Part shown: positions 49,423 through 54,312 of the stretch, piece by piece
How positions within the stretch are numbered: position 1 is the stretch's first letter
Layout of the letters: each line of letters begins with the position of its first letter
Source: Anaerophaga thermohalophila DSM 12881
GTDB lineage: Bacteria > Bacteroidota > Bacteroidia > Bacteroidales > Marinilabiliaceae
Reading direction: 5' to 3'
Assembly: GCF_000191885.1 (NCBI RefSeq)
Contig: NZ_AEWI01000007.1
Span: 62,001 to 126,000, forward strand
DNA: 64,000 nt
The notes under the pieces: model-generated
The model's input: only the letters and a program-made list of their open reading frames with translations
What the model was told of the DNA's origin: nothing
The model's database searches: none
Translations under genes and position numbers: made by a program

Positions 49423-49464
49423 ATGCATGTTTTCTGAATTGTTTTGTTCACTTCTGCCTTGCCT

Positions 49465-49661
49465 GTGGAATACGAAATCCCGACGATTGGTACAATTTAC
49501 CCGGGAGCTTCAACCGATAATGGTTCACCCTGTGAAAATTATATTTAACAGGGCAAGCCATACATCCATTGTCCCGGCAGGATACTATTGGAAGGTCAAC
49601 AGGTTTTGTTAGAGACATAAGTCACTGTAGAGCAATTACATAGAGCGAATTCGTGTCGCAA
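49465..49661 (-). mobile_element. Group II intron 5'-end fragment
   Basis: Matches the 5' third of the intron at 52063-52705 at roughly 85% over about 200 bp. On the - strand it starts TTGCGACACGAATTCGCTC after the exon sequence GAAACGTTA. The rest of the intron is missing. Its upstream exon also ends in ACGTT, like the attC-like site at 52706. Confidence 0.7.
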
Positions 49662-49841
49662 TAACGTTTCCGTGAATGATGTCGTTTGGCGATTCGAAGT
49701 ACAAACTTGTCAAACCGCTACACCGTATTTTAGATGTAACTCCCTCGAATGTAGCACTATCTGCCAAATGTGCTATACATGATGTCAGGGAATCGTGCTT
49801 TCATTATTATTTATCTTCCGGGCTCTAATATAATTTTTATG

Positions 49842-51357: not shown

Positions 51358-51717
51358 TTAATTATATAGGAGGGAGTGAATTTCTTTCTGAAGTTGGCCA
51401 AGGTCTCTTGTCACAATGGCCCAAATTATATCCTCGGATACGGAGTCATAGCCATGAATTATTCGGTTACGAGTATCAACAATTTTTCGAGCATGGCTTA
51501 TTTGTATCTCAGGGTCAAATTGCAATATCCTATTTACCGCTTCCCCAATTATTTCGATGTTTCTTTCAACCGCTTTTCTTGTTTTCAAATCTTTCTGGAA
51601 CTCGAAGAAATTTATAGTTTCGGGCAGAAAGCTCTCTTTTTCTTCAATTGACTGCTTTATGTCTTCAAGCCAAGTTTGGATTTCTTTTTGCATAAATCTG
51701 AATTTTGGTTCTTTCAA
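51358..51717 (-). CDS. HepT-like toxin (DUF86)
   Basis: A 119-residue helical protein with the HepT signature RX4HXY: Arg 83, His 88, Tyr 90 in RNRIIHGY. The frame overlaps the MntA gene by 53 bp if it starts at 51717; the Met at 51693 is an alternative start. HepT is a HEPN-type RNase toxin that is silenced by MntA-dependent AMPylation of the tyrosine. An attC-like R'' remnant follows the stop. Confidence 0.88.
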   Translation of the reverse strand: MKEPKFRFMQKEIQTWLEDIKQSIEEKESFLPETINFFEFQKDLKTRKAVERNIEIIGEAVNRILQFDPEIQISHARKIVDTRNRIIHGYDSVSEDIIWAIVTRDLGQLQKEIHSLLYN

Positions 51718-51988
51718 TTTCGCTCTTCAGGTACTTGTTTCTAAGGGCCTTTTGTTCTAACAGGTCGATTTCTCTTCTTAGGATTTCCTTTAGTTCAAAC
51801 TTCAGGTTAAAGTACTTATCAGCATACGATACAGGATCACTATCATCAATGTCTACCAATAAATCGATATCACTGTCGGGATTAAAGCTGTCATTCGTTA
51901 CAGAGCCAAATGCAAACAGAGCTCGGACTTTGTTTATTTCGCAAAGCCTGTTGATCTGCTCAATATGTTGATCTATTATTTTCATCAT
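51665..51988 (-). CDS. MntA-like nucleotidyltransferase antitoxin
   Basis: About 107 residues from the start at 51988 (a longer frame begins at 52003). The minimal nucleotidyltransferase motif GSX10DXD is present (FGSVTNDSFNPDSDIDLLVD), with the metal-binding Asp pair two residues apart, and a third acidic residue in REIDLLEQ. MntA AMPylates the HepT toxin and neutralises it. The 3' end overlaps hepT. The 60 bp upstream lead directly to the 3' end of a group II intron. Confidence 0.88.
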   Translation of the reverse strand: MMKIIDQHIEQINRLCEINKVRALFAFGSVTNDSFNPDSDIDLLVDIDDSDPVSYADKYFNLKFELKEILRREIDLLEQKALRNKYLKSEIERTKIQIYAKRNPNLA

Positions 51989-52062
51989 AAACCAAAAATA
52001 CAACTTTTTTCAGTATAATGCTTTAGTGAAAAATTGGCTTCTCCTTTTTTTTGCATTTGCTA

Positions 52063-52705
52063 ACCGGGTAGCTTACGCCCCCTATGAACCGTGCGTGCCA
52101 GTTTATGCATTCATAATTGATATTTTAAGGAATGCATGATTTTCAATTCCCGGCACACGGCTCAGGCACTTTTAAGTCCGTTCCGGTGAGGGAAGACCCG
52201 GCTGCTATTACTATCTATATTATCGTTGACAATAAAAGTAGTAATTTGTCTTTATTCTTTAGCTAAGGTTTCTTTTCTATAGGCTCATCCTGTCTGCCGG
52301 CTGAACAACATCTTCGTATGAGCTGCGTTAAACGCTCATAACCTGTCAGCTTACCGTTTTGGCAGGGAGCGTATCAGTCTTGGTTTTCGCTCTTACGCCT
52401 TTACGACAGTTGCGGAATATTCAAATATTTTAGCCATGCTCACGCATCCATGCCCTTAATCGGTCTAAGACCCCGATGACACTCCGCCTCGCGGTTTCGT
52501 GCCACGCCGTGGGATACGAAATCCGGGCGATTGGTACACTTCTCCCGGGAGCTTCAACCGATAATGGTTCACCCTGTGAAAATTATATTTAACAGGGCAA
52601 GCCATACATCCGTTGTCCCGGTAGGATACTATTGGAAGAACAATAGGTTTTATCAGAGGTGTAAGTCTCTGTAAAACAATTATATAGAGCGACTTCGTGT
52701 CGCAA
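52063..52705 (-). mobile_element. ORF-less group II intron inserted in an attC-like site
   Basis: About 643 nt on the - strand. It starts TTGCGACACGAAGTCGC, as the intron at 13381 starts TTGCGCC, and ends GCTACCCGGT, as that one ends CTACCCGGA. Domain V arms are GAGCCGTGTGCCGGG and CTGGCACGCACGGTTC with an intact AGC triad. Between them is an unusually long insert of about 45 nt containing its own ATGCATTC/GAATGCAT stem. Domain I segments such as GCGAAAACCAAGACTGATAC are visible. No reverse transcriptase frame is present. Removing it restores an attC-like R' box GTTGTAGC. Confidence 0.72.
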
Positions 52706-52848
52706 CAACGTCCCGGCTATATTCGCCTGGCCCGTGGCTTTCAGACCAGCTGCGATTTTATCAGCTTGAACGCATGGAAGAGGGTAATACAAGACCCTCA
52801 ATATGCTGTGGATGCCACAGTTAGCGTATTATAGCTTTGTTGTGCAAA
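52706..52848 (-). other. attC-like recombination site 2 (after higA)
   Basis: On the - strand it runs from TTTGCACAACAAAGC to GGGACGTTG, where the intron begins. The outer arms GCTATAATACGC and GCGAATATAGC pair, then GTGGC with GCCAC, and GAGGGT/ACCCTC forms an inner hairpin. R'' is GCACAAC (consensus RYYYAAC with one mismatch). About 85% identical to the site at 53746. It begins 10 nt after the higA stop codon. Confidence 0.62.
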
Positions 52849-52857
52849 TATTGCTTA

Positions 52858-53298
52858 TTACGCCTCTATCATATTTTTCCTCGTATTCATTAAACTCGCA
52901 TTTCGAAAATGTCTGTTCACTTCGTTAATCAATTTATAAGGTCGATTAAAAGCTTCTTGAGATAGCTTAAAATAATCTGAAAGTTTCCTTATTGTATCTT
53001 TTGAAAGTCCTTTATGATAATTAAGAATCTTAGATATTGTTCCTTTTGATAAATTCAATATTTCAACCAAATCTTTTGCTTTCAAATCATGCTCTTCCAT
53101 CAACGCTTTAAGTAATTCTATTGGGTCAGAATCTTTAAAGGTATTATGCTCTTTATCCCATTTTTCTATCAAAAGAGTAAGCAATTCTATCTCATCTTTG
53201 GTAGCTTTATTGTCTTTAAGAATCAAATCCTCTAGGATGTCGCAATATTCTTTGTACTGCTCCACATTTTTTATTACTGTATATTTTAATGTTTCCAT
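52858..53298 (-). CDS. higA: HigA-like antitoxin with HTH domain
   Basis: A 146-residue protein. The N-terminal half is acidic and helical (EYCDILEDLILKDNKATKDEIELLTLLIEKW), with the IELLKALMEEHDLKAKDLVEIL block typical of HigA antitoxins. An XRE-type helix-turn-helix follows (LKAKDLVEILNLSKGTISKILNYHKGLSKDTIRKLSDYF, about 72-110). It binds and neutralises the upstream HigB and represses the operon. The gene lies 23 bp after higB, the reverse order (toxin first) that characterises higBA. Confidence 0.88.
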   Translation of the reverse strand: METLKYTVIKNVEQYKEYCDILEDLILKDNKATKDEIELLTLLIEKWDKEHNTFKDSDPIELLKALMEEHDLKAKDLVEILNLSKGTISKILNYHKGLSKDTIRKLSDYFKLSQEAFNRPYKLINEVNRHFRNASLMNTRKNMIEA

Positions 53299-53321
53299 CT
53301 TTTTTCTTTTTTTAATTACGA

Positions 53322-53654
53322 TTAATAAACATCAATCTCGTACTGTTTTCTCTCATTGCAAAGTTTTGTGTATTCTGCATGAGTACCAATCCACTTAATA
53401 AATAGATGAACTCTCGTATCTCCAAAGTGATATTTACAAATCAGACGATAATTATTTCCGCCGATATTAAACACAACTCTGTCAGAACCTTTACCTAAAA
53501 TATCAGCACTATTAAATGTCAATATTATTTCATTAGGTTCGTGCCAATCAACTCGTTTAATAATTGATAACCATATCTCAAAAGCTGCTCTACTTCTGGC
53601 ATTTCTCAAGATATAATCTTCAATTGTCTGCTTCTTAATTAAATGTACTTTCAT
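53322..53654 (-). CDS. higB: HigB-like mRNA interferase toxin
   Basis: A 110-residue RelE-fold toxin of the HigB type (PF09907). Family blocks are KKQTIEDYILRNARSRAAFEIWLSIIKRVDW, VFNIGGNNYRLICKYHFGDTRVHLFIKWIGTHAEYTKL and the terminal charged segment. The His and Tyr residues in this C-terminal block belong to the nuclease surface. It cleaves mRNA on ribosomes when not bound by HigA. The gene starts about 90 bp after an attC-like site, as in an integron cassette. Confidence 0.9.
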   Translation of the reverse strand: MKVHLIKKQTIEDYILRNARSRAAFEIWLSIIKRVDWHEPNEIILTFNSADILGKGSDRVVFNIGGNNYRLICKYHFGDTRVHLFIKWIGTHAEYTKLCNERKQYEIDVY

Positions 53655-53745
53655 TTACTTATTCGCAAATATACAAGAAATGTTTCACAAAAGGAAACTA
53701 TTTGAGTCAATCCTGTTTCAATTTTGTAGGATGGTCTCCTGCAAT

Positions 53746-53889
53746 TTTGCACAACGTCCCGGCTATATGCGCCTGGGCATGGCTTCAGACCAGCTGTGAC
53801 TTTATCAGCTTGAACGCATGGGAGAGGGTAATACAAGACCCTCAATATGCTGTGGATGCCACGGCTGGCGTATATAGCTTTGTTGTAGC
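53746..53889 (-). other. attC-like recombination site 1 (after the PIN pseudogene)
   Basis: 144 bp on the - strand, from R'' GCTACAAC to R' GTTGTGC. The arms pair as GCTATATACGCCAGCCGTGGC against GCCATGCCCAGGCGCATATAGC. The terminal structure holds the GAGGGT/ACCCTC hairpin. Unpaired bases in the arms resemble the extrahelical bases of attC sites. It begins 17 nt after the PIN-gene stop, the position expected for a cassette recombination site. Confidence 0.62.
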
Positions 53890-53905: not shown

Positions 53906-54312
53906 TTAGTCTTTTAAAAATTCTTTTGGTGTTAAAACCTTTATGGTTGTATCTGTGAAGTCATTTTTATTTCTGGTTAGAATTAAATCTATCTGATGTA
54001 TTTCGGCTGCAGATGATTGTATTGCATCTTCAAAATCTTTCATCTTTGATGCCAATGCTTTTAATATTATCTCTTTGTTAATTCCAATTACATCAATCAC
54101 TTCTACTAGTTTTCAATGAAGTTAATCGCTTCATTATGTCCTTTTTCCTTTTTTGCAATGTAGTAAATATCAGTAATGGTTGTTGCAGTAATATTTCCTG
54201 TAATTTTCTCTTCATCAATGAGTATAAATAATTTTTGAGCATCTTCAAAAAAAAGATTCTCTCTTCAGAGCAATATCAAGGATAATATTTGTATCGAATT
54301 ATACCTTTTTCA
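53906..54312 (-). pseudogene. PIN-domain (VapC-like) toxin, degraded
   Basis: The pieces read MKKV-stop-FDTNIILDIALKRESFF near 54312, then in a second frame EDAQKLFILIDEEKITGNITATTITDIYYIAKKEKGHNEAINFIEN, and in a third frame LVEVIDVIGINKEIILKALASKMKDFEDAIQSSAAEIHQIDLILTRNKNDF. Together they form one PIN domain with its acidic residues (FDTN, DFEDA, TRNKNDF). It has one in-frame stop and two frameshifts: one in the T run near 54250 and one near 54108. It was an endoribonuclease toxin and is now inactive. Confidence 0.82.

Follow-up and report, generated by a model that had tools for sequence, protein, structure and literature searches.

What kind of element is a higBA toxin-antitoxin gene pair that is framed by two copies of a palindromic site and has no recombinase gene at its side? 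Such a unit lies in the window, i.e., the stretch of 64,000 nucleotides of the Anaerophaga thermohalophila DSM 12881 genome analyzed here, and an initial annotation had read it as part of a local chromosomal cassette array. Integrons are defined by IntI. We consider it very probable from the sequence that the HigBA unit is an integron-type gene cassette, that its flanking sites are attC and that both belong to a system with a non-IntI, Xer-like recombinase. The cassette ends, the boundaries between copies, the gene polarity, an attI, three covarying helices and the association with the recombinase all find support in the comparisons below. The array itself stood; its scale had been missed, the system being phylum-wide and equipped with an integrase and an attI of its own.

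The two sites do flank higBA. They had been given as about 144 bp long and about 85% alike and measure 135 and 132 nt from AAC to GTT, with a mean column identity of 88% including flanks, or 91% by blastn. Between them lies a unit of 917 bp, which starts with GTTGTGCAAA and ends with TTTGCACAAC. As noted in the initial annotation, these ends are exact complements over 10 bases, and simple arithmetic puts the chance of such a 10-mer match at fixed positions at ~1e-6. One point needs correction: genes and sites all read on the minus strand, so that the attC of the HigBA cassette lies at 52707-52841, ~20 bp behind the stop codon of the higA-like gene, and the one at 53753-53884 is that of the cassette before it (Table 1).

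Table 1 Features of the cassette cluster. Positions are those of the window; both intact attC belong to A2, the 58-site source alignment of the covariance model R1 that matches them.
Feature	Position	Strand	Basis
Decayed attC, second phylum-wide type	49663..49786	-	R2 E 2.9e-4 in the whole genome; 1.3e-5 in the 8-source search
Group II intron, 3' end approximate	52065..52705	-	RF02012 at 52452-52647
attC of HigBA cassette	52707..52841	-	In A2; R1 match E 2e-29
R'' box of HigBA cassette, TTGCACAAC	52839..52847	-	Pairing with R'
higA-like antitoxin gene	52858..53298	-	HTH_26 and HTH_3 above cut-off; unit geometry
higB toxin gene of cassette	53322..53654	-	PF09907 HigB_toxin E 2.1e-24
R' box of HigBA cassette, GTTGTGCAA (cassette start G^TT)	53747..53755	-	Exact partner of the box at 52839-52847
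attC of preceding (upstream) cassette	53753..53884	-	In A2; R1 match E 6e-32
PIN-domain fragment, remnant of preceding cassette	53906..54100	-	PF13470 E 4e-4, below curated cut-off

The surroundings of the cassette are partly degraded. An R' partner was searched for and not found for either the upstream cassette with the PIN fragment or the decayed attC, which starts with GAC, not AAC, and is followed by another intron 5' end with its junction at 49665. The intron next to the HigBA cassette begins with TTGCGACACG directly after GTTG of the attC, a junction seen at eight places, and the open reading frame list shows no reverse transcriptase frame within it. A second copy of the intron start lies at 49427-49665 (minus strand) behind the decayed attC, and a short ORF there looks by eye like a read-through of the intron. 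Directly after the intron, at 51358-52003 (minus strand), a HepT gene (PF01934) and an MntA-like nucleotidyltransferase gene (PF18765) form a pair, so that a second toxin-antitoxin system adjoins the HigBA cassette.

The claim that no recombinase stands beside this cluster of two attC and one decayed attC held up in whole-genome searches: the window is on contig C205, and the only full-length recombinase with a HARP-like domain is on C209. The cluster thus has the arrangement of attC without a nearby integrase called CALIN. It differs from a CALIN in that the sites are of a new type and a candidate cognate recombinase heads another array, on C209, in the same genome.

Queried with a single site, the genome (4.32 Mb, 211 contigs) yielded 25 matches. 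They cluster on short contigs, and several of these contigs stop within a site or next to one; of 61 genomes searched, eight have the site, including this one. The covariance model R1, built from the 58 sites of A2, matched in 13 of 71 genomes of the family and recovered 24 sites here. A second model, R2, built from diverse attC, contributed a further 15 sites with a different type of sequence (at E up to 0.1 it has 16 matches, of which one is an R1 site), which brings the total to ~39, many of them in arrays. In an alignment of 56 complete copies, conservation runs from AAC to GTT and no further.

Being palindromic and present in many copies per genome, the sites could be MITE- or REP-type repeats that a transposase has scattered and that flank genes by chance. 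For 36 units between consecutive sites from seven genomes, each unit's start was set against its reverse-complemented end. Of the four bases that follow GTT, 3.39 of 4 matched on average within a unit versus 1.80 of 4 within a site, and the summed match of 122 lay above the mean (62) and the maximum (91) of 100000 permutations. Matches at positions 4 to 9 numbered 31, 31, 32, 28, 24 and 30 of 36 and fell to 14 and 1 at the next two, which delimits a box of about nine bases. All four bases matched in 26 units. Five of the 10 others (in L026, L027, L028, L031 and L087) contain a second-type site and one (L096) contains a cassette delimited by an intron; the remaining four, of which L028 and L094 have one each and L095 has two, are without explanation.

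The longest ORF points towards the unit's own attC in 26 of the 30 units below 3 kb, the six units of at least 3 kb being left out of this count; in the other four it is no longer than 86 residues. A median of 18.5 nt separates the stop codon from the end of R'' in these 30 units. In a strictly defined set of 76 units (see below), the longest ORF ran towards its own attC in 64 and away from it in six of the 70 counted, the remaining six being longer than 3 kb or without an ORF. R2 matches in the eight array sources lay on the expected strand in 35 of 35 cases. Repeats scattered by a transposase would be expected neither to sit at gene 3' ends in one orientation nor to lie within a homologous block that includes the gene and ends at GTT, and attC bodies of differing sequence would not share a common structure; we regard the MITE/REP explanation as extremely improbable. 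Unit ends that pair over nine bases, site ends that rarely do, and sites at gene 3' ends are what the cassette chemistry invoked in the initial annotation predicts. The check proposed there, on the position of the sites and the matching of their boxes, came out strongly for the cassette reading through pairing, polarity and homology blocks.

The box itself is a different matter. It had been taken for the classical GTTRRRY with one deviating base and consists of GTTR and five bases that are free to vary, with pairing over all nine. In the 76 strict units, where the search rule imposes GTTR, 46 have a pyrimidine and none has an A at position 5, and positions 6 and 7 are variable. An A stands at position 11 of R' in all 76, though the rule did not demand it, and the partner strand there carries G (59), C (13), T (3) or A (1). 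These units come from 26 of 47 loci; some are nested alternatives in L210, and a few boxes are counted twice. Cassettes of 750 and 816 bp without a clear gene were seen in L026 and L027 (contigs C105 and C110), with the boxes GTTGGGGGG and GTTGGGGCC; L027 holds two copies of a block related to them.

Copies of the same cassette in different places define its boundaries. Contigs C117 and C152 of the present genome share a block of 1368 columns that is 99.3% identical, starts with CGTTGCCGGC and ends with GACGTT, the sequences beyond being unrelated. Similarly, two places on C110 (L027) share 947 columns (98.7%) from CGTTGGGGCC to one base past GTT. In these near-identical cassettes, homology is confined to the stretch from CGTT to GTT, and related cassettes of G005 and the present genome (87.6%) or of G005 and G032 (95.2%) show such a break on one side. 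Homology that breaks at cassette ends defines the mobile unit as a gene with its own 3' attC. A cassette gene common to Algibacter onchidii and G036, a member of the window's family, is 89.4% identical over 864 nt; homology begins at ACGTT and stops shortly beyond AAC, the bodies of the two attC are different, and the two boxes have changed together (GTTGTGGTT/AACCACAAC versus GTTGTAAGT/ACTTACAAC). The units are thus composed as a cassette is, of a gene and a 3' attC with complementary ends, and crossover is predicted from the sequence at G^TT; recombination itself we infer from these comparisons. In G036, a single contig, the same 161-residue ORF occurs in three stretches (L087, L088 and L089) and a 192-residue ORF in two, which suggests recent cassette duplication.

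The attC are nearly fixed in length, with 117-128 nt in the 76 strict units. To describe their structure we used alignment A8, which holds 62 of 64 attC, two near-copies having been left out by hand. It forms three helices with 91.5% of cells paired. Cells changed on both sides number 251 versus 78 in shuffles, and the covariation score is 0.719 versus 0.150 in shuffles and at most 0.126 with the partner slid. Helices 1 and 2 were partly selected by the stem rule of the search. Helix 3, with 94.7% of cells paired, lies on its 3' side outside the stretch used by that rule. Only 10 of ~790 paired cells in A8 are G-T pairs, suggesting that DNA and not RNA is folded. One strand of attC would be folded and cut. 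RNAalifold on the window-type sites alone (A2) yielded only five pairs, probably owing to the high similarity of the 58 sites; the diverse set A8 gave the structure instead. Single-strand folding of the two window sites is mildly better than that of shuffles (z -1.6 to -2.8). The expectation that the attC would be unlike textbook sites was borne out by their own box, near-fixed length and three helices.

Toxin-antitoxin genes between repeated sites also occur in the pdif modules of Acinetobacter plasmids, where host XerC/XerD move such modules between short dif-like sites. An Xer-dependent, dif-type module would fit the cargo of the present unit and an Xer-like recombinase whose best structural match is archaeal XerA. 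The sites argue against it, as they are direct, 117-135 nt long and in the diverse set fold into three conserved helices. In addition, unit ends pair over nine bases that differ between units, and an attI adjoins a dedicated recombinase, which makes host-driven dif modules very unlikely.

A conventional IntI integron, or a CALIN with its integrase elsewhere in the genome, would account for the cassette logic, the group II introns at attC and the attI geometry, all as in classical integrons, and a search for a recombinase with the IntI-specific insert elsewhere in this genome had been proposed. None of the 71 family genomes encodes an integron integrase above the TIGR02249 cut-off. Eight array-head or related recombinases scored 184-210 bits against a cut-off of 265, three IntI controls reached 404-476 bits, and the weaker TIGR02249 matches sit at array heads. 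The catalytic parts fit the XerA-type model NF040815 better than IntI, with 207-237 bits at a cut-off of 220 (seven of the eight proteins above, one long form below). At the place where three IntI carry ~31-37 extra residues (columns 292-329 of alignment A7), four aligned recombinases are gapped. PMC8138268 describes the IntI insertion as indispensable to integron function, even if its conservation within the group is incomplete.

In a tree of 95 rows, which includes 69 of the best 80 relatives and leaves out rows below 240 residues, ten IntI rows form one clade (100/100); the proteins of L227, L243 and L246 had been dropped as IntI controls. Fifty array-type recombinases fall inside a separate group of 55 rows (87/94), which additionally takes in three further rows from Bacteroidota and two from archaeal MAGs. 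With the insert lacking in the aligned recombinases, scores this far below the cut-off and a position outside the IntI clade, a hidden conventional integrase is highly improbable. Since tests of the integrase model, the insert and the box consensus all came out negative, the system does not count as an integron under the IntI-based definition, even though its operation would be integron-like.

The array-head recombinases, which would do the work, come in two forms. In the present genome, a recombinase of 379 residues (L032:1228-2367, on C209) is followed by one ORF and then by an attC at the contig end. In G005, G032, G036 and G008, a protein of 691-748 residues stands at the array head, and most ORFs after it are codirectional. 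By eye, the long form comprises two HARP-like domains, a recombinase copy that lacks the part with the catalytic HxxR and tyrosine, and then a complete copy. The catalytic half resembles archaeal XerA (NF040815; PDB 4a8e, 5hxy), the top Foldseek match. Differing from XerA, most of the proteins described here carry extra HARP-like domains and are accompanied by attC arrays and attI, and G005-type genomes have a second, degenerate recombinase copy fused in front. The present genome also holds a second, partial HARP-type recombinase (G000:C165:31733-32095), 93% identical over residues 1-121 in a 171-residue open frame. A small conserved ORF of ~92-117 residues, alike by eye, lies ahead of the recombinase at L032:2465-2743 (minus strand) and L084:5692-6045 (plus strand). 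The recombinases of G005 (long form, L084:1391-4966) and G023 (short form, L099:368-3987) both follow pyrG- and yidC-like ORFs (by eye), a shared chromosomal place with different recombinase forms.

If the system is an integron, the R' of the first cassette must follow the recombinase. We took the R'' of the first known attC in six loci and sought its exact nine-base partner downstream of the recombinase stop codon. The predicted 9-mer was present in all six, in five of them 100-531 nt after the stop; the sixth is a later cassette preceded by a second-type attC. Left flanks of these candidate attI are alike among related recombinases, with CTATAGGGAC standing before GTTATGGGC and before GTTGGGCAC. 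The search was extended by a strict rule (GTTR, nine exact paired bases, and an attC of 110-145 nt with a six-base stem), for which the opposite strand is unusable as a control because the motif is its own reverse complement. It gave 54 units versus 0.9 expected from local shuffles in 26 loci, made up of 20 regions from other genomes of the phylum that match the 379-residue protein and the six loci of the attI test. First boxes lay 89-103 nt after the stop in 10 of the 20 regions, and the longest chains comprise seven units (G212) and five (G367). An attI thus adjoins the integrase in five loci, and strict units follow it in 10 further ones. Three looser procedures were dropped: a relaxed unit rule was noisy (42 units versus 24 in control loci), de novo repeat pairing without a chain rule was weak (41 units; 230 versus 212 expected), and a loose chain walker, whose chance chains equalled the real ones in length at several loci, gave way to the strict version.

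In a scan of named genomes, covering the best 80 of 582 relatives and counting as HARP-type those matched from residue 41 or before, 35 units were found downstream of 27 HARP-type recombinases and two downstream of the 53 other tyrosine recombinases. Where at least 900 nt of downstream sequence was available, the strict test gave an attI chain in seven of 20 HARP-type loci versus none of 49 others, and did not find one in 13 of the 20. Isolates with units are Algibacter onchidii, Winogradskyella ursingii, Seonamhaeicola aphaedonensis, Algoriphagus ornithinivorans and Zunongwangia mangrovi, so the same architecture with different attC sequences occurs in named isolates of Flavobacteriaceae and Cyclobacteriaceae.

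R2 was used to estimate how far the system extends in the phylum. At E 1e-4 and with eight candidates scored per genome, it matched 185 of 395 sampled Bacteroidota genomes, 16 of which had contributed sequences to the model. In a control, nine of ten named Bacteroidota matched, six of the ten having contributed. None of 30 genomes of other phyla matched, three of them with a true IntI, with up to 88 candidates scored in each. R2 gave 55 sites in Zunongwangia mangrovi, 34 in Winogradskyella ursingii and 33 in Mesonia, which had no part in the model; the search of the 9.9 kb behind the Mesonia recombinase gave no unit, despite those 33 sites. The 379-residue protein matched in 117 of the 395 genomes at E 1e-40, the present one included. 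Recombinase and attC were both found in 103 genomes, the recombinase alone in 14, attC alone in 82 and neither in 196, an odds ratio of 17.6 with relatedness ignored. In Rufibacter a recombinase is present and R2 has no match in the genome.

The N-terminal domains of these recombinases point to HARP. A profile of 19 such domains, searched against 177635 sequences, had the HARP domain of SMARCAL1 (PDB 4o66) as its top PDB match (E 7.4e-6), the next PDB match following at E 0.005. PF07443 (HARP) was detected in five of the 19 members (best E 5.6e-5) and DUF5710 in four (best E 5e-4). The structure predicted for the 379-residue protein (mean pLDDT 81.6) starts strand-strand-helix-strand-strand-helix, and its closest solved structures by Foldseek are XerA and then the integron integrase 2a3v; the model of a 703-residue recombinase is poor (mean pLDDT 59). 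The domain thus resembles SMARCAL1 HARP by profile and by the order of strands and helices, and differs in being fused to a tyrosine recombinase. By eye, L165, L174 and L178 have two HARP-like domains ahead of one recombinase.

The HARP domain of SMARCAL1 binds junctions of single- and double-strand DNA. We hypothesize that its counterpart here could read the folded attC, in place of the IntI insert. It cannot be strictly required, since L177 of another Bacteroidota genome (G099) encodes a recombinase without a HARP domain and nevertheless has, behind it, an attC and a candidate attI at +93. A further array-type recombinase without HARP (L176 of G445, also from other Bacteroidota) has no strict units. 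HARP mediates annealing helicase activity according to PMC9243424. No paper on the combination of HARP with a tyrosine recombinase was found in the literature search.

In the proposed mechanism, a cassette would consist of one or a few genes with their own 3' attC and would be cut at G^TT. On circularization, its first nine bases (R', GTTRnnnnn) would meet the complementary last nine (R''), and the circle could insert at an attI ~35-530 nt after the gene of an Xer-like, non-IntI tyrosine recombinase, or at another attC. Tentatively, and with slightly more doubt than confidence, we suggest that this is an integron from outside the IntI line: an Xer-type recombinase may have gained one or two HARP domains, binders of forks and junctions, that read the folded single-strand attC and do the job of the IntI insert, and some genomes of the window's family may have fused an inactive to an active copy (~700 residues), fixing which bound unit cuts.

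Sedentary chromosomal integrons share with this system an integrase that heads the array, attI, genes with a 3' attC, G^TT, complementary ends, foldable attC and group II introns at attC. Set against them, the recombinase here lacks the IntI insert, falls below the IntI cut-off and mostly carries HARP-like domains. The box consists of GTTR and five freely varying bases, and a mismatch at position 11 is almost invariable; the attC have 117-128 nt and three helices, and the array is codirectional after the integrase.

Reports of integrons in Bacteroidota are few: one complete integron is given for Bacteroidetes proper, in Salinibacter ruber M1 (PMC9024848), and Bacteroidota or the Bacteroidetes/Chlorobi group appear among integron carriers (PMC8618304, PMC2426708). 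The integron and HARP literature searched, which did not cover preprints and most subscription journals, yielded no description of such a system. With a recombinase that is not IntI and sites unlike the known ones, current integron searches have probably missed it. Many Bacteroidota, this one included, appear to collect and shuffle small cassettes by an integron-like system, and if about half of the sampled genomes (185 of 395) carry it, a large cassette pool has been overlooked, in part on a plasmid. It would give a second example of how a recombinase can carry out this reaction, and what a tyrosine recombinase needs to act on folded single-strand DNA thereby becomes testable by comparison. 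The R2 model and the box rule GTTRnnnnn[AC]A can serve as search tools in any genome.

Plasmid records were searched as well. On a 66-kb plasmid of Chryseobacterium sp. SNU WT5, a recombinase whose annotation reads site-specific tyrosine recombinase/integron integrase precedes a candidate attI at +104 and five attC, and the array contains a group II intron reverse transcriptase. A Persicobacter plasmid record has two R2 sites after the recombinase, and that of Pontibacter kalidii has none.

Group IIC-attC introns insert at attC. The introns seen here resemble them in lying exactly at attC ends and differ in being inserted directly after GTTR of the new attC type. Among 11 matches to a simple pattern, eight have TTGCGACACG or a close variant directly after GTTR of an attC end; the other three look like chance. 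The copy in L026 ends at the contig end, and in L096 the end of the intron adjoins the R' of a cassette that is ParDE-like by eye.
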